Source: an uncultured Propionibacteriaceae bacterium
Lineage (GTDB): Bacteria > Actinomycetota > Actinomycetes > Propionibacteriales > Propionibacteriaceae
DNA: 64,000 bases
Assembly: GCA_945911015.1 (NCBI GenBank)
Contig: CAMDZW010000005.1
Span: 1-64,000, forward strand
Direction: 5' to 3'
The notes below the pieces were generated by a model that was not told the origin of the DNA, made no database searches, and saw nothing but the letters and a program-made list of their open reading frames with translations. Below, piece after piece: positions 42,549 to 54,371 of this stretch; position 1 is the first letter of the stretch; each line of letters begins with the position of its first letter. A program made the position numbers and the translations under genes.

Positions 42549-43789
42549 AGTTGGCCATCGCTCACGACACGGGTGCCGGACCGCAACACCTCCCGTACGG
42601 TGCCCAATCGGTTAGTTGATGCGCCATCGAGCACGACCAGGTCGGCCACCAGGCCCGGCCGGATCCGTCCGACCTGGCCGCCGAGTCCAATGGCCTCGGC
42701 GGCCAGGGAGGTCGACATGGCGATCGCCTCGGCCAGGGTGCAGTCGAGTGCGATCATCGCGGCGTGCACGCTGTCGGTGAAGTTCCGGAATGGGGTGAAA
42801 CGCACGCCGGCATCGCTTCCGACCACCACCGGGATTCCGGCTCGAAGCAGCTTTTGTGCCCAGGAGAAATCAGTACGGAGATCCCCGGTCGGCGAGATCG
42901 CCAGGGCATCGGTACGTTCCTGATCGGTGAATCCGACCGCACCCGGCACCAGAGCCCGCTGGATTCCGGCCAGGGTGAGAACAACGGTTGACCGCGAGCC
43001 CGTGAGCAGATCCACCAATGTGCGCGGATCGGCCGGGCTCCCATCTGACTCACGCCACAGACAATGTTCGATCGTGTCCACCCCAGCCAACACCGCACCT
43101 CGAATGCTGGCGACATTCTGCGCATGAGCAGCGACGGGAAGCCCGTGACCATGGGATGTACGAACGGCCACCGCCACCTCGGCATCGCCGAACTGTGCGG
43201 TGAACGGGTCCGATTCACGGGTCATGTTTCCACCGCTGGTCATGATCTTGACGACATCGGCTCCCGCATCGGCCAACTGACTGATCACCGCGACAATCCC
43301 GTCCTCGCCGGAGGTGCCATTGCCGCACCAGTGCAGATGACCACTCGGCGTGGTCACCGGCGCTCCTGCGCTCAGGATCCGCGGGCCGGCCAGTGAGTGG
43401 GCATTGATCCGATCCCGCAGTCCCATGACCAGGTTGCGGGTGTCGCCAAGATCGCGGACCGTGGTGACTCCGCCCAGCAGGCATTCGACGGCATTCTGCT
43501 CACCGATCGCGGTCAGTGTCGCGTCGTCGGAGGTCTCGAATCGTGTCCTGGTCCGCTCATGGTCGGTGTCGCAGCTGAACAACAGATGGACATGGGCATC
43601 GACCAGTCCCGGGATCAGCGTGGAGTTCGGAAAGGTCCGCACCGAGGCATCGGGCCGCAGGTCGTCGGTGGCCACCTCGGCCACGATCAGATTGTCCTTG
43701 ATACCGACCGCACGATCGTGGCGAGGCGGAGCGCCCGTCCCGTCGTGCAGGGTGTCGACAGCAAGCCATTGGTCCACCTCGGGAGTCAC
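42530..43789 (-). CDS. Metal-dependent amidohydrolase (imidazolonepropionase/prolidase-like)
   Basis: A 419-residue amidohydrolase-superfamily enzyme. His66 and His68 (DAHVHL), Lys181 (VVKIMTSG, probably carboxylated), His in PVAAHAQN, His in IEHC and Asp in VGSDAG form the binuclear metal site in the usual order. The group includes Xaa-Pro dipeptidases, imidazolonepropionases and organophosphate hydrolases, so only 'cyclic amide or peptide hydrolase' is safe. GTG 43789 overlaps the upstream hydrolase stop as GTGA. It is the last gene of the iclR-hydrolase-hydrolase minus-strand unit. Confidence 0.88.
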
Positions 43790-44610
43790 GAATCGCCCTT
43801 CTGTTGTGGTGTGGAAGGAAATGTACGGTCAAAGGTGCCGCCCAGCACGAGGGCCCGTTCGTCCGCTGAGACGGACTCCAGTGCCGTGGTGATCGCGGTC
43901 AGCGCCGTGGAAAGGTCGTCGCCCGACCCTGGCCAGTCCGATCCCCACATGACTCGCTCGGCTCCGAACAGCTCCACCACATGATGGGTGTACGGGATGA
44001 GGTCGCGATGGGGTGGTGGCTGGGTGGAGTGATGGGGCGCATTCGGCATCTTGATCCGGGTGTTCGGCAAGGCGGCGAGTTGGTCGAGGTGGGGGTCGAA
44101 CCGATGCGGATCGCTCAGATCGGGTCGGCCGCCATGGTCGAACAGGACCGTGAGTCCGGGATGGCGGCGGGCGTAACGCGTGGCGGCGGCCAGATCAGGG
44201 GCCGCAGCATGGAGGCATGCCACCGCCCCGTGGCGGACGAGCGCGTCGGTGAGTGCGGTGGTGTGGGCGTAGTCGAGCCATTCGGGGTCGCCGGTGGGCA
44301 TGAACCGCATCCCGGCGAATCCTTGGTCCAGGAGTGCCTCCAGCTCCGCCACGGTGGCATCGACCCTGAGTCGGGCGATGCCGACGAATCGATCAGGGTG
44401 GGCGGCAAGGGCGGCGGCGGTGATCGAGTTGTCCCCGGCCCGATTGCTCGGCGTCACCACACAGGCACGGCTGATCCGATGGGCGTCCATCTGGCTCAGG
44501 AAATGCTGAAGTCCGCCGTCAGGGCCGTGGTGCTCATCCCGGCCGAAGTGGAGGTGCGCATCATTGATCCTCATCCCAGTCCCGCTGTTCCTCTCGGTCT
44601 CGATGGTCAT
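43786..44610 (-). CDS. Amidohydrolase-2 family hydrolase/decarboxylase
   Basis: A 274-residue TIM-barrel metal enzyme of the ACMSD/lactonase type. NDAHLHFG gives the HxH, a central DHGGRPD and a late WGSDWPGSG (Asp) complete the site. Relatives open lactone rings or decarboxylate. The start is ATG 44610 (a second candidate, ATG 44574, begins MRINDAHLHF). An 18-base direct repeat surrounds the start (44598-44647). It is cotranscribed with iclR and the amidohydrolase. With the KdgD-like lyase across the divergent promoter, a lactonase step in sugar-acid breakdown is plausible. Confidence 0.85.
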   Translation of the reverse strand: MTIETERNSGTGMRINDAHLHFGRDEHHGPDGGLQHFLSQMDAHRISRACVVTPSNRAGDNSITAAALAAHPDRFVGIARLRVDATVAELEALLDQGFAGMRFMPTGDPEWLDYAHTTALTDALVRHGAVACLHAAAPDLAAATRYARRHPGLTVLFDHGGRPDLSDPHRFDPHLDQLAALPNTRIKMPNAPHHSTQPPPHRDLIPYTHHVVELFGAERVMWGSDWPGSGDDLSTALTAITTALESVSADERALVLGGTFDRTFPSTPQQKGDS

Positions 44611-44647
44611 CTCAGTCCTGCTGTCTCGATCTCGATGGTCATCTCAG
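44598..44647. repeat. 18-bp direct repeat (period 32) at the iclR stop/hydrolase start
   Basis: TCTCGATGGTCATCTCAG occurs at 44598-44615 and 44630-44647. The copies carry, on the minus strand, the iclR TGA with an overlapping ATG, and then the hydrolase ATG. The first ATG opens an 11-codon mini-ORF that stops just before the true start. It looks like a duplication that separated an originally overlapping stop/start. Confidence 0.85.
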
Positions 44648-45409
44648 GGCCTGTCCAATCTCGGTAGCGGTGGTCGTCAGGACCTCCACAATCTCGGCCT
44701 GTCGGGTCGGGGTGAGTCGGGCGGCCGGGACTGAGCAACTGATCGCATCGCGGATCGGCGTCCCGTGACGTGGCGGTGCAATGGCCACTCCGATGCAGTG
44801 CAGCCCGGGCGTGTTCTCGTCGAGATCGAGTCCCCAGCCGCGTTCGCGGGTGCGGGCCAGATCGGTGCGCAGTTCGTCGGGGTCGGTGATGGTCTGTTCG
44901 GTCAGCGCCGGAAGTGGGGTGCCCAGTCGTACCAGTGCAGTGTCAAGCTCATCATCGGGCAGGCTGGCCAACAAGGCCTTGCCCAGTGAGGTGGCGTGAG
45001 CGGGGAGGCGGCGGCCGACGCGGTTGATGACCCGGAGGTACTGGGTTGACTCACGGGTGGCGAGATAGACGACCTCGGTGCCGTCGAGGCGCGCCAGGTG
45101 GATGGTCTCGTCGAGCTCGGCCCGGAGCCGATCCAGCCACGGTTGGATCAGAGGCACGCGACGATCTGTGTCGAGATAGCTGACACCGGCGATGAGGGCG
45201 CGGATCCCCACCCCGTAGAGCATCCCGGTGGGGTCGCGCTCAACCCAGCCGAGTTCGGACAGGGTCTGCAACAAGGCGTAGGCGCTGCTGCGGGGGATGC
45301 CGGTGGCCGCAACGATGTCGCGGATCCTGGCCGGGTCGTCCTGGCGTGAAGCGAGATATTCGAGCACCGCGACGGTGTGCTCAGCGGACTTGACACTGCG
45401 AACGGCCAC
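44639..45409 (-). CDS. IclR-family transcriptional regulator
   Basis: A 256-residue regulator. A winged HTH is at about 5-65 (IRDIVAATGIPRSSAYALLQTLSELGWVERD) and the IclR effector domain at about 75-255 includes HATSLGKALLASLP and GWGLDLDENTPGLHCIGVAIA. IclR proteins often control aromatic or sugar-acid breakdown and respond to small carboxylates. GTG 45409 faces the KdgD-like gene across a 75-bp spacer holding a palindrome, so it most likely controls both directions. Confidence 0.93.
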   Translation of the reverse strand: MAVRSVKSAEHTVAVLEYLASRQDDPARIRDIVAATGIPRSSAYALLQTLSELGWVERDPTGMLYGVGIRALIAGVSYLDTDRRVPLIQPWLDRLRAELDETIHLARLDGTEVVYLATRESTQYLRVINRVGRRLPAHATSLGKALLASLPDDELDTALVRLGTPLPALTEQTITDPDELRTDLARTRERGWGLDLDENTPGLHCIGVAIAPPRHGTPIRDAISCSVPAARLTPTRQAEIVEVLTTTATEIGQALR

Positions 45410-45445
45410 ACAACGATGCTAGCGTATGACTACGGATGTGGATGG

Positions 45446-45463
45446 CAGCTACGTATGTAGCTG
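45446..45463. promoter_or_regulatory. Palindromic operator candidate between iclR and the kdgD-like gene
   Basis: CAGCTAC (45446-45452), GTAT, GTAGCTG (45457-45463) form perfect 7-base arms in the divergent spacer. The size and position suit an IclR-type operator controlling both units. Binding is inferred. Confidence 0.55.
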
Positions 45464-45484
45464 TGCGATGGAGAGGTTGAGGTC

Positions 45485-46426
45485 ATGGAGATCGCAGAAC
45501 GCGCCGAGAACCTGCGGGCCCGGATGGCGGACCAGATGCAACAGGGAGTGCTGGCCTTCCCGCTGACGTCGTTCACCGAGGACGGAGAGCAGGTCGACGT
45601 CGAGGGCTTCACCCGACACATTCGTCGCCACATCGACACCGGCGCGGCCGCGCTCTTCGTCGCCTGTGGGACCGGTGAGTTCCCGTCGCTGACCGAGGAC
45701 GAGTTCCGCACCGTCGTACGGGCAGCGGTCGCCGAGGCCAAGGGGGAGGTGCCGGTGTTGGCCGGCGCCGGTTACGGCTGGACACAGGCTCGGCGGTTCG
45801 CCCAGATCGCTGCTGAAGAAGGAATCGAAGGCCTCCTGGCGATGCCGCCCTACCTGGCTCGCGGATCGCAGGCCGGCATGGTCGAACACATCCGCCGGAT
45901 CGCCGTGGCCAGCCCGCTTCCACTGATCGTCTATCAGCGCGACCTGATGGCGCTCACCGCGGCATCGGTCGCCGAGCTGTCCCGGTTGGATGCAGTCATC
46001 GGGCTCAAGGACGGCCACAGCAATTTCCTCGAACTGCAGCGGATGCAGCTGGCCACCGACGACACCTTCTTGTGGTTCAACGGGTCCCTGACCGCCGAGA
46101 TGCAGTACCGGCCCTATGCGGCCGTCGGCATCGCCCCCTACTCCTCGGCTGTGCAGTCCTTCCTGCCGGAGGTGTCGCGCGCCTTCTTCCTGGCCGCCCG
46201 CGACGGTGACCAGTCACGGATGGACGAGCTGCTCACCGGTTTCTTCTCCCCGTTGGTGGAGATCCGCGACCGGGTCCCCGGCTATGCCGTCGCCCTGGTC
46301 AAGGCCGGCGCCCGGCTCCGCGGTGAACAGGTCGGTCCGGTCCGCGCCCCGCTGGTCGAGCCGAACGGCACCGACCTGGATGACCTGGCCGCGCTCATCG
46401 AGACCGGGCTGGCCCTGGTCCGATGA
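45485..46426 (+). CDS. DHDPS/NAL-superfamily lyase, 5-dehydro-4-deoxyglucarate dehydratase-like
   Basis: A 313-residue TIM-barrel Schiff-base enzyme. Tyr150 (IVYQRDL) and Lys175 (GLKDG) are the conserved catalytic pair, and GTGEFPSLT is the pyruvate-type carboxylate loop. The GVLAFPLTSF start and YQRD block resemble KdgD, which converts 5-keto-4-deoxyglucarate to 2-oxoglutarate semialdehyde with loss of CO2. ATG 45485 has GGAGAGG upstream. It overlaps the next gene by four bases. A different keto-acid substrate is possible, because no partner semialdehyde dehydrogenase is nearby. Confidence 0.82.
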   Translation: MEIAERAENLRARMADQMQQGVLAFPLTSFTEDGEQVDVEGFTRHIRRHIDTGAAALFVACGTGEFPSLTEDEFRTVVRAAVAEAKGEVPVLAGAGYGWTQARRFAQIAAEEGIEGLLAMPPYLARGSQAGMVEHIRRIAVASPLPLIVYQRDLMALTAASVAELSRLDAVIGLKDGHSNFLELQRMQLATDDTFLWFNGSLTAEMQYRPYAAVGIAPYSSAVQSFLPEVSRAFFLAARDGDQSRMDELLTGFFSPLVEIRDRVPGYAVALVKAGARLRGEQVGPVRAPLVEPNGTDLDDLAALIETGLALVR

Positions 46427-47445
46427 CCGATCCCGTACGGGCGCGTGAAGCCCTCGCCGATCTGCCACGGGTGAGCCTTGCCGAGTTGCCCACCCCACTG
46501 ACCGACTGTCCTCGACTCTCCGAAACCCTTGCTGGACCAAGGATCCTGGTCAAACGTGACGACTGCACCGGGCTTGCCTTCGGCGGCAACAAGGTCCGTC
46601 AGCACGAGTTCGTGCTTGGGGACGCACTGGCTGCGGGAGCTGACTGCCTGGTCCAGGGCGCGGCGGCTCAGTCGAACCACTCCCGTCAACTCGCAGCGGC
46701 CGGTGCCCGGCTCGGGATCGAGACCCACCTGTTGCCGAAGGTGGCCGACGACACCGTCCTGCAGGGCAACTATCTGGTGGACCATCTGCTCGGTGCGCAG
46801 ATCCACCCGATCCGCCCCGACCAGTCGACGATCGAGGCGAAACAGGCCCTGGCTGAGGAGCTCCGGGCGGCGGGACGAACCCCGTACGTGATCGGGATGG
46901 GCGCCGAACGCGCCCTGGTGATGGCCGCCGTCGCCTACATCAACGCCGCACTCGAACTGGCCAACCAGGTCGATGAACCGCCGACCGCGATCATCACCAC
47001 CTCTCAGGGCAGCACCCAGGCCGGCCTGTTGGTCGGCTGCCGGATGCTGGGCTGGGACACCAAGGTCATCGGCATCTGTCCGATGCCCCCGTCCCATGAG
47101 GCCTGGAATGCCCCCGAGGCGATCGCCCAGATGGCCCGCGATGCCGCCGCGGTGATCGGGCTCGACTGGCCCGCCGACAGCTTCGAGATCGAGTTGCGGC
47201 AGGATTTCGTCGGTCAGGGGTACGGTCTGGCCTCGCCGGCCGGACTCGCGGCGATGGCTCTGCTGGGCCGCACCGAAGGGATTCTGCTCGACCCGGTCTA
47301 CACCTCCAAGGGATTCTCCGGGCTCCTCGCCGATGTGCGTGCCGGCCGGTGGGGGACTGAGGACACGGTCATCTTCTGGCACACCGGTGGGCTGCCGGCA
47401 CTCTTTGCGCAGCCGGAGGCGGTGTTGGAGGCGAGTCGGTCATGA
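46423..47445 (+). CDS. PLP-dependent D-cysteine desulfhydrase/ACC-deaminase family enzyme
   Basis: A 340-residue fold-type II PLP enzyme. Lys57 in FGGNKVRQ binds PLP. QGAAAQSNHSRQLAAAGARLG is the substrate loop, and TTSQGSTQAGLLVGCRMLG binds the phosphate. Relatives include D-cysteine desulfhydrase (DcyD), ACC deaminase and the L-cysteate sulfo-lyase CuyA, all producing ammonia and a keto acid. ATG 46423 overlaps the lyase stop (ATGA). In this cluster it probably deaminates an amino-acid-like intermediate that the KdgD-like enzyme then handles; this is inference. Confidence 0.85.
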   Translation: MTDPVRAREALADLPRVSLAELPTPLTDCPRLSETLAGPRILVKRDDCTGLAFGGNKVRQHEFVLGDALAAGADCLVQGAAAQSNHSRQLAAAGARLGIETHLLPKVADDTVLQGNYLVDHLLGAQIHPIRPDQSTIEAKQALAEELRAAGRTPYVIGMGAERALVMAAVAYINAALELANQVDEPPTAIITTSQGSTQAGLLVGCRMLGWDTKVIGICPMPPSHEAWNAPEAIAQMARDAAAVIGLDWPADSFEIELRQDFVGQGYGLASPAGLAAMALLGRTEGILLDPVYTSKGFSGLLADVRAGRWGTEDTVIFWHTGGLPALFAQPEAVLEASRS

Positions 47446-48374
47446 GGCTTGCGGTCGTCGGCGCCGGCTGGGCCGGGCACCGGCAGTGCGTGGCCATCTG
47501 CGGACATGCCACGGCCGAACTGGTGGCGGTGATCGACCCGGACATCGATCGGGCGACAGGACTCGCCGACTCGTACGGGTCCACCTCGACCGTGGTGGGT
47601 GCGGATCTGGCCGCTGTCGGCGAGGTCGACGGGGTTGTGCTCTGCTCACCGACTGCGCTCCACTTCGACCAGACCATGGAGTTCGTGGCGCGCGGGATCC
47701 CCGTGCTGGTGGAAAAACCGTTCACCCAGACGCTGGACCAGGCCCGTACGATCGCCGCCGCTGCCGGTCACGTCCCGGTGATGGCCGCGCAGATCCTGCG
47801 ATCCATGCCGATGTTCACTCTGGCTGCGGACCTGATCGCGGCAGGGCGTCTCGGGCAGGTCGTGCAGGTGGTCGAGCGGCGCCTCGAGGATCGCCAACGG
47901 GCCCATCCGTGGTGGGCCGATGTTCCCGGTTTCCTGATCTCCCACTGGGGGAGTCACAGCATCGACCTGGTCAGCCACCTCTTCGCGGCTCCGGTCTCGG
48001 ACCAGGTGGCGTGCGCCGGCTCATCGGTGCGGCACACCGGGGTGATGGACACCTTCAACGCCCAGCTCGGTTTCGTCGGCGGCCCGGTGATGACCACGAC
48101 GATGTCGTTGGCCTCCACGTACCAGACCCACGACCTGGTCATGGTGGGCACCGAGGCAACGGTGTCCTTCGACTGTTATCGCCGGGTCCGGCTCGACGAC
48201 GAGGTCCTTCTCGAACTGGACGAGGACGAGATGGTCACCGCAGGTTTCGCGACCCAGCTGGCGAGTTTCGTCGAGGCGATCGAGACCGGTGTGGTGACGG
48301 TCGGGACGCCGGGATCAGTGGTCCGCAGCACCGAGGCGGTCGAGGCCGCAGTCAGGGCCGCGCTGCCCGGCTGA
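47442..48374 (+). CDS. Gfo/Idh/MocA-family NAD(P)-dependent oxidoreductase
   Basis: A 310-residue dehydrogenase. The Rossmann motif VVGAGWAGHRQ is at the start, and EKPFTQTLDQA is the family's Glu-Lys-Pro nicotinamide motif. The second half is the usual alpha/beta substrate domain (SHWGSHSIDLVSHL holds the catalytic His-x-x-x-Asp). Relatives oxidise or reduce sugars and cyclitols. ATG 47442 overlaps the previous stop (ATGA), so lyase, PLP enzyme and dehydrogenase form a tightly coupled operon. No transporter belongs to the unit. Confidence 0.9.
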   Translation: MRLAVVGAGWAGHRQCVAICGHATAELVAVIDPDIDRATGLADSYGSTSTVVGADLAAVGEVDGVVLCSPTALHFDQTMEFVARGIPVLVEKPFTQTLDQARTIAAAAGHVPVMAAQILRSMPMFTLAADLIAAGRLGQVVQVVERRLEDRQRAHPWWADVPGFLISHWGSHSIDLVSHLFAAPVSDQVACAGSSVRHTGVMDTFNAQLGFVGGPVMTTTMSLASTYQTHDLVMVGTEATVSFDCYRRVRLDDEVLLELDEDEMVTAGFATQLASFVEAIETGVVTVGTPGSVVRSTEAVEAAVRAALPG

Positions 48375-48468: not shown

Positions 48469-49803
48469 GTGGATGAGGCAGCGTTCAACGCCCTGTACCA
48501 GCGGAGCTATCACCGCATCGCGGCACATGTGTACCTGATGTGCGGCAACCTCAACGAGGCCGAGGAGTGTGCCCAGGAAGCCTTCGCCGTGGCATGGCAG
48601 TCCCGGGGCAGTCTCCGCGTCGATGACCACCCCGAAGCCTGGCTGCGCACGGTTGCCCGCCGTGTCAGCATCGGCCGTTGGCGAAAGGCCCGCCGCATGG
48701 TGTCCGTCCCAGAACCTCTTGACCGTCCGGCAGAAGCTGGCGATCCGATCGACCGGATCGCCGTGCAACGAGCGCTTGCCGAGCTGCCCGTGGCACAGCG
48801 CGAGGCGATTGTGCTGCACCATTTCTGTGACCTGCCGATTGCCGACATTGCCGCCGAGACGGGGAACCCGGAGGGGACGGTGAAGGCTCGGCTGGCCCGG
48901 GGGCGGGCCAAGCTCGCTCAGCTGCTCGGCGAAGGGGATGCTGCGGTCAGTGCCGCACTGCAGGAGATCGCACAACCTGCGTACGGGCTGGTGAGGCCGA
49001 CGCTGGAGCAGATCAAGCAGCGTCGGGTGGCCGGGCAGCGGCGCAGGACCGTGTTCGGGATCGTCGGTGGGGCGGTCGCTGTGGGGCTCGCCCTGGTGTT
49101 GGTGCTGGTGGTCATCCGATTGCCACAGTGGCGTGCCGACGACCCGGTCACCGTGACCACTCCGGATCCGGGGCAGTCACCGTCGCCGTCGGTGCCGCCG
49201 ACCAGTGACACTCCGGCCGTGCCGAACTGGGATCGGCTGCCGGTCGAGGAGGAGGTGTCCTTCGTGGAGCCGGGCGACATGGGCCACACCGAGGACATCG
49301 AAGGGCTTCCCGAGGACCTGTCAATCTGCGCCGTCGATGTCCCGTCCTTGGGCCCCACCGGGACGTTGACCCGGATGTTCACCAACTCCGATCGGATCTG
49401 GGAGGCCGCCGTGCTGTTGGAGTTCGCCACTGCCGAGCAGGCCACAGCGGCCCGCGAAGCGATCCGCAACGCCTACTTCAACGGCTGTGAGCCGTCCGGA
49501 TTCAAGGAGGGGCCCCAGTTCCTGTGGTCCGACGACATCCCGGTCGACGACCAGGCGCGGCCCGGGGAGATCTTTGCCGATCTCCACCGCGCCAGCTGGG
49601 CCACCATCGAGGGAGAGCCGAACCAGGAGCAGGTCGGCGGCAACGAGCTCGCCGTCGTGGTGCAGGTCGGCAACCGACTGGTCTGGTTGGTGCAGCATCT
49701 GGAAGGTTTCCCGGAGTACACCTGCTACGCCGTCGATGACAACGGCGGCGAGATCTGTGGTCTGGTCCGACAGGTCCCGGATGTGGTCAAGCGACTGCTT
49801 TGA
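48469..49803 (+). CDS. ECF sigma factor fused to a membrane-anchored extracytoplasmic domain
   Basis: A 444-residue protein. Sigma region 2 (about 5-75: NALYQRSYHRIAAHVYLMCGN) and region 4 (about 100-155: LPVAQREAIVLHHFCDLPIADIAAETG) form a normal ECF factor. A linker and one membrane helix (about 194-216) follow, then a Pro/Ser/Thr stalk and an external domain of about 195 residues with cysteines (SICAVD, NGCEPSG, EYTCYAV, EICGLV). GTG 48469 has GGAGGA upstream. Membrane tethering means that proteolysis or conformational change must link the outside signal to transcription. No separate anti-sigma gene is adjacent. Confidence 0.88.
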   Translation: MDEAAFNALYQRSYHRIAAHVYLMCGNLNEAEECAQEAFAVAWQSRGSLRVDDHPEAWLRTVARRVSIGRWRKARRMVSVPEPLDRPAEAGDPIDRIAVQRALAELPVAQREAIVLHHFCDLPIADIAAETGNPEGTVKARLARGRAKLAQLLGEGDAAVSAALQEIAQPAYGLVRPTLEQIKQRRVAGQRRRTVFGIVGGAVAVGLALVLVLVVIRLPQWRADDPVTVTTPDPGQSPSPSVPPTSDTPAVPNWDRLPVEEEVSFVEPGDMGHTEDIEGLPEDLSICAVDVPSLGPTGTLTRMFTNSDRIWEAAVLLEFATAEQATAAREAIRNAYFNGCEPSGFKEGPQFLWSDDIPVDDQARPGEIFADLHRASWATIEGEPNQEQVGGNELAVVVQVGNRLVWLVQHLEGFPEYTCYAVDDNGGEICGLVRQVPDVVKRLL

Positions 49804-49920
49804 CCTGGCCGGTGCTGACCCGAAGTCATGGATTCATCATTGACTGCCCGGGTCCGGGCACGAGATTGGCCTCTGCTGCCTAGAATGATCCCGGATGCCT
49901 GATCTACGGAGGAGCACGAC

Positions 49921-51087
49921 ATGGGTCTGATGGACAAGCTCAGAGGCGAACTGGTCGACATCATCGAGTGGATCGATGATTCCCGTTCGACGCTGGCCTG
50001 GCGGTTCCCCCGCTACAACAACGAGATCAAGAACGGCGCACAACTGATCGTGCGTGAGGGCCAGGAAGCGGTGTTTGTCTACCGCGGCCAGCTCGGTGAC
50101 CGGTTCGGCCCGGGGCACTACGAGCTCTCCACCGAGAACATGCCGATCATGTCGACCCTGCAAGGGTGGAAGCACGGCTTCAACTCGCCGTTCCGCTCCG
50201 AGGTCTACTTCATCAACACCCGACCGGTCACCGACCTGCGATGGGGCACCGCCAACCCGGTCACCGTCCGGGACCCGGACTTCCGGATGGTCCAGGTCCG
50301 CGCCAACGGCCTGTGCGTCGTCCGGGTCGAGGATCCGACCATCTTCCTGCGTGAGGTCATCGGCACCGACTCGGTGGTCGACATCTCCGAAGTGTCCGAG
50401 CTGCTGCGCCGGGTCATCACCCTGGCCTTCTCCGACATGGTCATGGAGACCAAGCTGGGCGTCATCGATCTGCAGGGGCGGCAGGTCGAGCTGTCGGACA
50501 AGCTGCGGGACTTCGTGGCTGAACGGGTCGACGATGAGTACGGCCTGGCGATCGAGTCGATCACGATGAACATCTCGCTGCCGGAGGAGATCACCCAGGC
50601 CATGACCCGCGGTGTGGCGCGCGGTGTCGAGGAGTCCGGTTGGGTCAACAACCTCGGTGACATGCAGCGTTACCAGCAGGCCAAGGCCGCCGATGCGATG
50701 ACCACTGCCGCCGGCAACCCCAATGGCGGCGCCATGGGTCAGATGATGGGTGCCGGGATGGGCTTTGGGATGGGTTCCCAGATGGCAGGCGCCATGGGTC
50801 AGGCCGCTGCCCCGGCTGCGGCACCGCCGCCGCTGCCCTCAGCGCAGGCCGCTGCCTACCATGTCGAGATCAACGGTGCCGCCGCTGGCCCGTACGATCT
50901 CGCGCAGCTGCAGGGATTCGTGGGCAATGGTCAGGTCAGCCGGGAGTCCCTGGTGTGGACCAACGGCATGGCGGGCTGGGCCAAGGCCGGTGAGGTCGAT
51001 GACCTGGCCGGGCTCTTTGCTGCTCCGCCGCCGCTGCCCGGGGCCGGTGCCACCCCGCCGGCACCGCCTGCGGCTCCTCAGCAGTGA
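49921..51087 (+). CDS. SPFH-domain protein with C-terminal GYF_2 domain
   Basis: A 388-residue cytoplasmic or membrane-associated scaffold. The SPFH/Band 7-type core (about 20-250) resembles the YdjI/'virion core' group: REGQEAVFVYRGQLGDRFGPGHYELST, then LREVIGTDSVVDISEVSELLRR. A Met/Gly/Ala-rich linker leads to a GYF_2-type module (YHVEINGAAAGPYDLAQLQGFV-WTNGMAGWAKAGEV) and a Pro-rich tail. No signal peptide is seen. GGAGGAG precedes ATG 49921. It is 20 bases upstream of a zinc-ribbon membrane protein, a pairing like YdjI-YdjG in Bacillus. Confidence 0.85.
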   Translation: MGLMDKLRGELVDIIEWIDDSRSTLAWRFPRYNNEIKNGAQLIVREGQEAVFVYRGQLGDRFGPGHYELSTENMPIMSTLQGWKHGFNSPFRSEVYFINTRPVTDLRWGTANPVTVRDPDFRMVQVRANGLCVVRVEDPTIFLREVIGTDSVVDISEVSELLRRVITLAFSDMVMETKLGVIDLQGRQVELSDKLRDFVAERVDDEYGLAIESITMNISLPEEITQAMTRGVARGVEESGWVNNLGDMQRYQQAKAADAMTTAAGNPNGGAMGQMMGAGMGFGMGSQMAGAMGQAAAPAAAPPPLPSAQAAAYHVEINGAAAGPYDLAQLQGFVGNGQVSRESLVWTNGMAGWAKAGEVDDLAGLFAAPPPLPGAGATPPAPPAAPQQ

Positions 51088-51107
51088 GTTGAGGCCGAGC
51101 AGAACCC

Positions 51108-52352
51108 ATGACGCAACCACCTCCGCTGCCGGGGCAGTCCGAACCCCAGGGCAGCCCGCCGCCGCTGCCCGGGCAGAGCTGGGACGAGCCCCTGCCGGAT
51201 CCGGGTCCGCTGCCTGACCCGGGACCGCTCCTCGATCCGGCCGTGCTGCATGCCACTGAGCAGACCCGCACCTATCCGTGTCGGGCCTGCGGCGGCCTGC
51301 TGGTCTTCGATCCGGACTCGGCCGGGATGTTGTGTGTGAGTTGCGGAAGCCAACAGCCGGTCGTCGAGGTCGGTGGCACGGTCGCGCGTCACGACCTGCG
51401 TACCACGATGCGGCAGCTCGAGCAGGCCCGACGGGCCGCGGGCAAGCGCCTCATCTCGGCGGACTCGCAGAAGGAGATCGTCTGCCAGTCCTGTGGTGGC
51501 CACACCTCCTTCACTGGGACATTGACCGCGATCCGCTGTCCCTACTGCAACACCCCGATCCAGCGCGACGACCTGCAGGACGCGCCCGTACGTCTTCCGG
51601 TCGACGGTGTGCTGCCGTTCATGGTGGGCGAGAAGGTGGCCCATGAGCAGATCGAGAAGTGGATCAACAGCCGTTGGTTCGCGCCGAACGAGTTCAAGAA
51701 GTACCGCACGCTCGGTTCGTTCTCCAGCATCTATCTGACCTACTTCGCCTACGACGCGGACACCACGACCGACTACCACGGCCAGCGCGGCGACCACTAC
51801 ACCGTGACCGTCGGTTCCGGCGAGAACCGGCGTACGGAGACTCGGACCCGGTGGCGTCCGGCCTCAGGTCGGGTGGGATCACAGTTTCGTGATCTACCGG
51901 CCCTGGCCAACACCAACCTCGACGAGGGGAAGGTTGCTGCTCTGGAGCCCTGGCCGACCGCCCAGACCAAGCCGTACACGCCCGAATATGTCAGTGGCCA
52001 TCTGAGCCGCACCTACGACCAGGACGCCGGGCAGACTTTCGATCGAGTCGCCCGGCCCCGGATCGACAGCACCATTGAGTCACAGGTCCGTCGCGACATC
52101 GGCGGTGACGTCCAACGGGTCAGCAGCATGAACACGACCTTCCACCTGCTCAACTTCGCCCACATCCTGATGCCGGTGTGGTTGTTGACCGTCACCTACC
52201 AGCAGAAGCCATACCAGGTGTTCATCAACGGCGCGACCGGTGAGGTGCAAGGCCAGCGGCCCTACAGCGCGGTCAAAATCACCCTCGCCATCATCGCCGC
52301 GGTGCTGGTGATCGGGGTTTGTGTCGGGCTCTACATCTACTTCGGCGACTGA
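51108..52352 (+). CDS. Double zinc-ribbon protein with C-terminal membrane anchor
   Basis: A 414-residue protein. The first 50 residues are Pro/Leu/Gln-rich (PPPLPGQ repeats). Two zinc ribbons follow: CRACGG-15-CVSCGS and CQSCGG-16-CPYCN. The middle domain has WFAPNEFKKYRTLGSFSSIYLTYFAYDA, typical of the TFIIB-like zinc-ribbon proteins that accompany SPFH scaffolds, and a last hydrophobic helix (VKITLAIIAAVLVIGVCVGLYIYF) anchors it tail-first. It is cotranscribed with the SPFH-GYF gene; both share Pro-Leu-Pro motifs that a GYF domain could bind. Confidence 0.83.
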   Translation: MTQPPPLPGQSEPQGSPPPLPGQSWDEPLPDPGPLPDPGPLLDPAVLHATEQTRTYPCRACGGLLVFDPDSAGMLCVSCGSQQPVVEVGGTVARHDLRTTMRQLEQARRAAGKRLISADSQKEIVCQSCGGHTSFTGTLTAIRCPYCNTPIQRDDLQDAPVRLPVDGVLPFMVGEKVAHEQIEKWINSRWFAPNEFKKYRTLGSFSSIYLTYFAYDADTTTDYHGQRGDHYTVTVGSGENRRTETRTRWRPASGRVGSQFRDLPALANTNLDEGKVAALEPWPTAQTKPYTPEYVSGHLSRTYDQDAGQTFDRVARPRIDSTIESQVRRDIGGDVQRVSSMNTTFHLLNFAHILMPVWLLTVTYQQKPYQVFINGATGEVQGQRPYSAVKITLAIIAAVLVIGVCVGLYIYFGD

Positions 52353-52378
52353 GGCAGGACCGCAGCAGTTCAGATCGC

Positions 52379-52407
52379 TGCAACCGAACGCCCGTACCGA
52401 TCGTCAT
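52379..52407 (+). promoter_or_regulatory. Candidate ECF-type promoter of the split sigma module
   Basis: TGCAACC (52379-52385), 16 bases, then CGTCAT (52402-52407). It shares TGCAACC and spacing class with the promoter of the fused sigma gene. The downstream ATG is 37 bases away. Confidence 0.45.
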
Positions 52408-52443
52408 CACAGTAAACGACGATGGTAACGGGAGGTAGCAGCG

Positions 52444-52965
52444 ATGGATGCACCGGCGTTTGACGCGTTCTATGCAGAGTCGTTTCCCAGACTCGTCGGT
52501 CAGATCTACGCCATGTGCGGTGATTTGGTTGAGGCCCAGGACTGTGTGCAGGAAGCGTTCGTCCGGGCATGGTGTCGACGGAACCAACTCGCTGACCTCC
52601 ATTCCCCAGAGGCATGGATACGGACTGTGGCATGGCGACTTGCGGTGAGTCGTTGGCGCCGTACACGCCGTTCGCGGCTGCCAGCGGACAGGTCTCGCCT
52701 GCCTGCGCCACCACCTGTACCGAACCCGGACCGAGTCGCGCTCATCGCCGCACTTGCCCAAATCCCAGCGCGTCAACGCCGGGTGATCGTGCTCCACCAC
52801 ATCTGCGACATGGCGGTGAAGGATGTCGCGACCGAGGTCGGGGCGCCGGTTGGAACCGTCAAGGCCTGGTTGTCTCGTGGGCGTGCCTTGCTGACGTCGT
52901 TGCTCGATGAGAGTGAGCCGCAGGATGAGCTCAATCCCAAACAGGAGGAGATTGGCCATGCATGA
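52444..52965 (+). CDS. ECF sigma factor (stand-alone form)
   Basis: A 173-residue sigma factor. Region 2 (AFDAFYAESFPRLVGQIYAMCGDLVEAQDCVQEAF) and region 4 (QIPARQRRVIVLHHICDMAVKDVATEVGAPVGTVKAWLSRGRA) match the fused factor at 48469 closely. GGGAGG lies nine bases before ATG. It overlaps the next gene (52958) by eight bases, so the membrane protein is coexpressed and is its probable regulator. Confidence 0.9.
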   Translation: MDAPAFDAFYAESFPRLVGQIYAMCGDLVEAQDCVQEAFVRAWCRRNQLADLHSPEAWIRTVAWRLAVSRWRRTRRSRLPADRSRLPAPPPVPNPDRVALIAALAQIPARQRRVIVLHHICDMAVKDVATEVGAPVGTVKAWLSRGRALLTSLLDESEPQDELNPKQEEIGHA

Positions 52966-53815
52966 TCCAGACGTTGATCGGCTGACCGAACAGATGCGAG
53001 CGCTGGCCGAAGACGGCAGCAGACAGGCCGTCGGATTGCCCAGTGAGCAGGTTCGCGCACTCGGTGTGCGTCGAAACCACCGACAGGTCGCGTCGCGGAC
53101 CTTGTTCGTTGTCATTGTCGCGGTGGCTCTGGTGGGAGGGGTCGCGACAATGACCGGACGTCTGCCCGGCATTTCCGTGATGCCAGCGGCTCCGCCACCT
53201 AGCACAATCCCAACAGAGCTGGCACTTGACGCGAATCCTCCCGCCGACATCAATGCGGACCTCACCGAGGGCCCAGGTGAGGGCCTCGTCCTTCGTCGAT
53301 TTGCGCCGTGTGACCCCGATGCCCATGCCAGCTTGGTACAACTGCCTCAGGACTGGGTACTCATCGACAGCACCACCATGGCCGATCAGGTTCGCGGCAT
53401 CCACTACCAAGATGCCGACCTTGACCAGGTCCGCTTGGTGCAGCTGTACGGTGACGTCTCAGTTGCGGAGCGGGTCATGCAGCAGGTCCGCGACGCCGTG
53501 GCCTCCTGCCCGACCATGGAACGTCAGGGACCCAACGGCACGGTGGAACGCAACGACTTCACTGTGGTGGACGCTGATGTCGGAGACGACGGTGTCCTCA
53601 CCACATCCCGTTGGTTTGCCGGCGACGGAACGCAGGCTGTCCCTGGAGCAGAGCTGCGTTACATCGTTCGGGTCGGCTCAGTGATTGTCATGGTGAGCGA
53701 ACTCAATCGCGGCATCACCGATCCGGCGGCCCTAGCCCAACTGGCGGCCGAGCTGCAGCGAACTGCGGAAGGACTCGTCGCTGAGCTGTGTGCCTTCGCT
53801 GACCGGCCGTGCTGA
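52958..53815 (+). CDS. Membrane protein partner of the ECF sigma factor (sensor/anti-sigma-like)
   Basis: A 285-residue single-pass protein. The short cytoplasmic part (1-46) has SEQVRALGVRRNHRQVASR before a membrane helix (about 47-65), and a 200-residue outer domain follows a Pro-rich stalk. The layout and short blocks (for example ERVMQQVRDAVASC versus AATAAREAIRNAYFNGC) parallel the C-terminal half of the fused sigma protein at 48469. It has no ZAS/HRDC-like anti-sigma zinc motif (HxxxCxxC). AGGAGGAG precedes ATG 52958. An earlier in-frame GTG/ATG at 52907 lies within the sigma gene and is rejected. Confidence 0.85.
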   Translation: MHDPDVDRLTEQMRALAEDGSRQAVGLPSEQVRALGVRRNHRQVASRTLFVVIVAVALVGGVATMTGRLPGISVMPAAPPPSTIPTELALDANPPADINADLTEGPGEGLVLRRFAPCDPDAHASLVQLPQDWVLIDSTTMADQVRGIHYQDADLDQVRLVQLYGDVSVAERVMQQVRDAVASCPTMERQGPNGTVERNDFTVVDADVGDDGVLTTSRWFAGDGTQAVPGAELRYIVRVGSVIVMVSELNRGITDPAALAQLAAELQRTAEGLVAELCAFADRPC

Positions 53816-53882
53816 CCCCGGTTCGCACAACAGATCTCTGAGAAGGACATCGGGTCCTTCCAGATCCTCAAGGAGGAGCAAC

Positions 53883-54371
53883 ATGACCACATCTAAGACA
53901 TCGCCGATTGTCGCCGCAATTGCGACGCTGGCAATCTCGGCTGGCTCTCTGATGGGAGCGAGCACTGCAGCTGCCGGAGGCGCACCCATCGGACCCCAGG
54001 GAGACTACGACTCCCTCTGCGTAGGACAGGGTCAGAACCACTCGGTTCGGCTCTACTACGCCAGCGATGGCTCCTTCAAGATCCTACGTTGCGGTACTAC
54101 GTCGGGTTGGGGGTATCGCTACATCGACGCGTACCATGGAGATGGCTTCGACAGTCTGCTGGATGCCAGCATCGAGAACACACTCCAATACGGTGCCGCC
54201 AACAACATGGGTGGTGGAGAGTACTGGTGGGTGTACGCGGGGTTCATCGTAATGATCAATAACAACGGTGCAGGTGATGGCGCACCGATCGGGATCATTC
54301 ACGCGCGAAGCAACGCAGCACCGTTGATTGAATCGCTCGGACTCAAGGACGGAGCGAACGAACAACAGTAG
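53883..54371 (+). CDS. Small secreted protein downstream of the sigma module
   Basis: A 162-residue exported protein. The signal peptide is residues 1-31 (cleavage near STAAA-GGAP). The mature part is Gly/Asn/Tyr-rich (WGYRYIDAYHGDGF, NNMGGGEYWWVYAGFIVMINNNGAG) with two cysteines (SLCVGQ, LRCGTT) that could form a disulfide. AAGGAGGAGC precedes ATG 53883. Its base composition is less GC-rich than its neighbours. No family is recognised. The 67-base gap after the sigma partner suggests a regulon member or an antagonist delivered outside. Confidence 0.75.
   Translation: MTTSKTSPIVAAIATLAISAGSLMGASTAAAGGAPIGPQGDYDSLCVGQGQNHSVRLYYASDGSFKILRCGTTSGWGYRYIDAYHGDGFDSLLDASIENTLQYGAANNMGGGEYWWVYAGFIVMINNNGAGDGAPIGIIHARSNAAPLIESLGLKDGANEQQ

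Follow-up and report, generated by a model that had tools for sequence, protein, structure and literature searches.

A SigE-like sigma factor fused to its one-pass membrane partner, derived from an order-wide family of overlapping gene pairs

The window analysed here, the initial 64 kb of contig 5 of a 3.72-Mb draft genome, carries two loci of an order-wide family in which a SigE-like ECF sigma factor is paired with a partner protein that crosses the membrane once. At one locus the two proteins form a single polypeptide; at the other they are encoded by two overlapping genes. The split pair is ancestral, the 444-aa fused protein arose once in this genus, when such a pair became joined in frame, and a second fusion is found in another family. 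Our full reading of both loci, in which family membership and in-frame joining are combined with a sigma factor that is held at the membrane and freed by proteolysis, is in our judgement reasonably probable.

The fused form is a GTG-started open reading frame on the forward strand (48469–49803) that encodes 444 aa in one gene, with exactly the coordinates and length given in the original prediction of an ECF sigma factor joined to a membrane helix and an outer domain. Its sigma part (aa 1–155; 48469–48933) is SigE-like, and TIGR02983 is its best family (E = 4.9e-37, 127.3 bits against a curated cut-off of 141.55). The cytosolic segment that follows (aa 156–197; 48934–49059) is the counterpart of the partner's N-terminal Arg-rich module, here eroded, and leads into a transmembrane helix (aa 198–216; 49060–49116; hydropathy maximum 3.04 at aa 198) and a putatively PknH_C-like outer domain (aa 246–444; 49204–49800), which scores 61 bits with an HMM of the split partners of other genera.

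The split pair follows on the same strand after a gap of 2,640 bases and has the same parts in two genes, as predicted. A SigE-family sigma factor of 173 aa (52444–52965; TIGR02983, 149.5 bits, above the cut-off) is followed by a partner of 285 aa (52958–53815; ATG at 52958, with a longer open frame beginning at 52907), and their 8-base overlap, ATGCATGA (52958–52965), holds both the partner start codon and the sigma stop codon. The partner consists of a cytosolic module (aa 1–48; 52958–53101) with the motif EQVRALGVRR, which scores 20.4 bits with the cytosolic HMM described below, a transmembrane helix (aa 49–67; 53102–53158; hydropathy maximum 2.36, at aa 49) and an outer domain (aa 86–285; 53213–53812). 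A hydropathy scan found a single strong hydrophobic segment in the fused protein and in the split partner alike. Sigma regions 2 and 4 exceed the Pfam cut-offs at both loci (PF04542 and PF08281), TIGR02937 gives 68 and 60 bits for the two sigma parts (cut-off 42.9), and these are 45% identical over 161 aa (BLASTP, E = 5e-40). The predicted lack of a classical zinc anti-sigma factor was borne out: Pfam and NCBIfam gave no zinc-finger anti-sigma domain in the fused protein and no anti-sigma family in the split partner at E up to 1, and Cys is absent from both cytosolic segments.

Two genes lie between the loci, on the same strand (49921–52352): one encodes an SPFH/Band-7 protein that has a GYF_2 domain, the other a protein that combines CxxC zinc-ribbon motifs with a C-terminal helix. 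On the other side of the fused gene, 43786–48374 holds a catabolic-looking cluster that, judged by translations only, comprises an amidohydrolase-like protein, an IclR-type regulator, a DapA-like aldolase, a D-cysteine desulfhydrase-like protein and a Gfo/Idh-like oxidoreductase. The SPFH, zinc-ribbon, oxidoreductase and desulfhydrase genes were not found in the 37 loci of relatives examined, and anti-phage defence models gave no match. Directly 3′ of the split pair, 53790–54371 encodes a small protein with a likely signal peptide, whose part from 53880 has no Pfam match; it is a possible target of the split sigma factor.

We searched 198 genomes of the family, 293 of the order and 394 of the class with the fused protein as query. 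The fused form that makes up a single clade is limited to the window's genus, with three copies in two genomes: the window's own, a second full-length protein on contig 15 of the same genome (42% identical to the window's) and a third in a congener, G001 (46% identical). Elsewhere the query matched essentially the sigma part only, with a few alignments crossing a stop codon into the cytosolic module; the exception is the separate fusion in genome G274, from another family. The relatives include Tessaracoccus sp. SD287, which makes Propionibacteriaceae a likely, though not proven, identity for the family. Of the 48 loci examined, 45 have a partner gene after the sigma gene (44 distinct pairs, as L047 and L078 are identical in sequence). 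These partners share one layout: about 40 aa in the cytosol, a single helix at around aa 40–60, a Pro/Ser-rich linker and an outer domain, which is PknH_C-like in most members and of another kind in some. The partner starts 8 bases inside the sigma gene (ATG at −7) in 33 of the 45 pairs, 11 bases inside in seven, 4 bases inside in four and more than 100 bases downstream in one, so the window's split pair has the overlap that is standard for the family. Long frames in G121 and G066 run out of frame within the sigma gene; we excluded them as broken or low-quality.

An HMM of the cytosolic module, built from the family's own partners, matched most partners in three other families at 14–30 bits, with no match in the four most distant partners; among the reported shuffles the highest score was 7.3 bits. 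The HMM also recognized the sister fused proteins, L048 and L049 (27 and 21 bits), which retain the full module and, inside the fused frame, a partner-like start Met, as well as the G274 fusion (30.3 bits). The window's fused protein scores 1.6 bits, and its segment is recognizable by position: LQEIAQ..LEQIKQRRVAGQRRR aligns with LDRLAA..SEIRRRGNRRR of the partners, and its Arg motif has three additional residues (RRV; within 48934–49059). This degeneration may reflect relaxed constraint after fusion. One partner, in G039 (L062:5268-6518), has the same cytosolic module and helix with a BNR-repeat-like outer domain. The G039 protein indicates that outer domains are exchanged; the module is kept when a BNR-like domain takes the place of a PknH_C-like one and is therefore what stays constant in the partner.

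These features suggest how the system might work. The cytosolic module of a split partner would act as a non-zinc anti-sigma factor that keeps its sigma factor at the membrane; a signal sensed outside would lead to a first cleavage, after which a site-2 M50 protease would set the sigma factor free. The fused protein would undergo the same events in cis, with one polypeptide acting as sensor, anchor and sigma factor, although inhibition in the window's copy may come from tethering alone, given that its module is degenerate. Release of this kind has precedents: the sigma domain of IutY is released by Prc and RseP (PMC5411451), and proteolytic release has been proposed for the membrane-tethered groups ECF48, ECF52 and ECF53 (PMC8999054; PMC5826349). 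The genome encodes one M50 site-2 protease, but M50 proteases occur in 14 of 14 control genomes, so its presence proves little. AlphaFold models built from three-row alignments (the window and L047) were poor, with mean pLDDT of 44.7 and 51.1, and gave no trustworthy docking of the cytosolic module on the sigma domains.

Two other accounts of control have to be weighed here. The tethered sigma factor might work, or stay, at the membrane and be controlled by conformational change passed through the helix, with no proteolysis at all. The eroded module of the window's copy and the varying linker between sigma part and membrane among the fused proteins would fit such control, and ECF41-type extensions do work by conformational change (PMC8999054). 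A single helix with a small receptor offers no obvious lever, however, and the sole characterized membrane-fused sigma factor is proteolytically released (PMC5411451); we therefore regard this account as unlikely, if worth keeping in mind. Alternatively, the partner might be a membrane sensor or activator that is merely co-expressed with the sigma factor and does not inhibit it, as could be expected of a cytosolic module of about 40 aa that matches no known anti-sigma family. The conserved overlap and the repeated fusion point instead to a direct partnership, and it is precisely the cytosolic module that is conserved across partners with differing outer domains; we regard this second account as distinctly unlikely. 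We retain membrane retention followed by proteolytic release as the preferred reading.

The original prediction also held that the outer halves share short blocks. Direct BLASTP of the fused against the split outer half gave E = 0.094, within the Pro/Ser low-complexity linker, which is not significant; the relationship emerged through the profiles of relatives. A first common HMM, initially taken as proof of shared outer domains, was rejected: fused and split proteins had matched different halves of it, because it included partners with two tandem outer domains. Such tandem PknH_C-like domains are seen in the partners L056:4620-6011 (G055) and L058:5370-6878 (G037). The common HMM was replaced by domain-by-domain profiles. 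In the L019 partner (G055), each of the two tandem outer domains is matched by the split outer domain (24.3 and 23.1 bits), and the second outer domain of G037 gives 12.4 bits with the split outer domain and a weak 9.3 bits with the fused one. In profile–profile comparison, the fused-side and split-side sets aligned collinearly (P = 8.6e-6 to 5.3e-5, probability about 65%), so that the profile homology set beforehand as the test of the prediction is present. Eight column-shuffled controls gave P of at least 0.68, and two further partner sets gave 0.058 and 0.35; when the profile was limited to the three fused outer domains, it did not reach the split set (P = 0.24). By sequence, then, the case is supportive, if not overwhelming, that the outer domains of the window are remotely homologous members of one PknH_C-like family.

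The family's resemblance to PknH_C itself is weak. Five of 22 family members match PF14032 at E up to 0.5 (best E = 3.2e-5), and the L058 partner scores 24 bits (E = 3.9e-5); all matches lie below the curated cut-off of 27 bits, and the window proteins themselves give none. The family matched TiME (PDB) at E = 0.013. A Foldseek search with one AlphaFold model returned no match at E of 0.001 or better, with LpqN and TiME among the weak matches; coming from a weak model, this list can serve as a hint only.

Trees of the sigma and partner parts establish the direction of change. The three fused proteins make up one clade (UFboot 100), whose nearest neighbours are split pairs of other genera. In the tree of sigma plus partner this clade lies among split pairs and adjoins that of G021 (UFboot 97, corrected for a one-node label shift on rerooting); the support drops to 75, read by bipartition, once L116, from the same genus as G021, is added. 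Because the fused clade is nested among split pairs, it originated by fusion and not by fission. Fission is further disfavoured by distribution, given that the split form is order-wide and the fused form is confined to one genus and one independent case. In the two genomes of the genus nearest the fused clade, the partner starts more than 100 bases past the sigma stop codon (offsets 125 and 152) and the overlap is lost, and the likely course ran from a split pair through loss of the overlap to in-frame fusion. Third codon positions vary more than second positions in the fused frame, which therefore looks maintained.

Duplication followed by fusion or fission had been proposed for the window; of this, fusion stands and fission is disfavoured. 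A local tandem duplication, after which one of two sister loci was fused or split, would suit their distance of 2.6 kb on the same strand and the 45% identity of their sigma parts, and the sigma parts alone do not reject sisterhood (AU test, p = 0.30). The partner alone is marginal (p = 0.074), and sigma plus partner rejects it (p = 0.019). Moreover, both sigma parts have closer relatives among the split sigma factors of other genera, and the fused outer domain, which reaches its 61 bits with partners from other genera, matches nothing in the neighbouring split partner. The window's split pair is itself unstable, changing position between two concatenated trees. We consider local duplication quite improbable.

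The second fusion lies in another family, at L102 (G274:C13:74000-82000), where a frame of 636 aa comprises a sigma part and a two-domain partner. At the junction, G274 reads CATGCCGAC and a congener with a split pair, G317, reads CATGCCTGA; the codons are AAC CAT GCC GAC and CAC CAT GCC TGA, respectively. The T of the sigma stop codon is lost in G274, and the frames are thereby joined. This is apparently an independent fusion through loss of one base in the overlap, but with a single base in a single genome as its basis it may also be a sequencing error. It is scarcely credible that errors in sequencing or assembly produced the window's own fused frame from a split pair: one lost base can join overlapping pairs, as the single G274 genome illustrates, but there are three diverged fused copies from two assemblies, with differing linkers and open frames.

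Beyond the preferred reading, we tentatively propose, as a possibility that falls short of an even chance, that the module of about 40 aa, [EQ][IV]RxxGxRRR, represents an undescribed, minimal non-zinc class of anti-sigma factor that is spread across the order and carries interchangeable outer domains. On this view sigma factor and partner would have undergone fusion at least two times, in one case because the conserved 8-base overlap is such that deletion of a single base brings the frames together. The control of many actinobacterial ECF sigma factors that have no recognizable anti-sigma factor is unexplained, and this family offers a candidate partner whose cytosolic module is conserved and whose outer domains can be exchanged. 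Its natural fusions point to joint action of sigma factor and partner and to the order in which the parts evolved, and they are ready single-chain constructs for studying how the module holds the sigma factor.

Signalling by a tethered sigma factor had been predicted to be unusual. Unusual it is, but tethering itself is already known, from IutY and from ECF48, ECF52 and ECF53 (PMC8999054); the new elements are a cytosolic module without zinc, an outer domain of PknH_C-like kind and the fact that an overlapping gene pair has become fused more than once. A close parallel in layout is IutY of Pseudomonas putida (ECF243), which joins a cytosolic ECF sigma domain, a membrane segment and an outer regulatory domain in one polypeptide and, like the window's fused protein, unites what two genes normally encode. 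It differs in belonging to another sigma group and in sensing aerobactin via an outer-membrane receptor in a Gram-negative bacterium, and the window proteins have no Pfam match to a FecR-type outer domain of its kind. Release by Prc and RseP is proven for IutY, whereas in the window's family release is inferred. ECF48, ECF52 (SCO4117 of Streptomyces coelicolor) and ECF53 have a zinc-finger anti-sigma domain, whereas this family is without a zinc motif; the outer domain of ECF52 is carbohydrate-binding, and that of the window's family is probably PknH_C-like. The cytosolic module recalls class II CnrY, a short non-zinc helical anti-sigma segment that wraps its sigma factor (PMC7406223), in an analogy confined to size, layout and the lack of zinc. 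With PknH_C, LpqN and TiME of mycobacteria, the outer domain shares a conserved Cys, a strand–helix unit and C-terminal strands, alongside the weak profile and fold matches; those domains sit on Ser/Thr kinases or envelope proteins, whereas here they would sit on a sigma-factor system.
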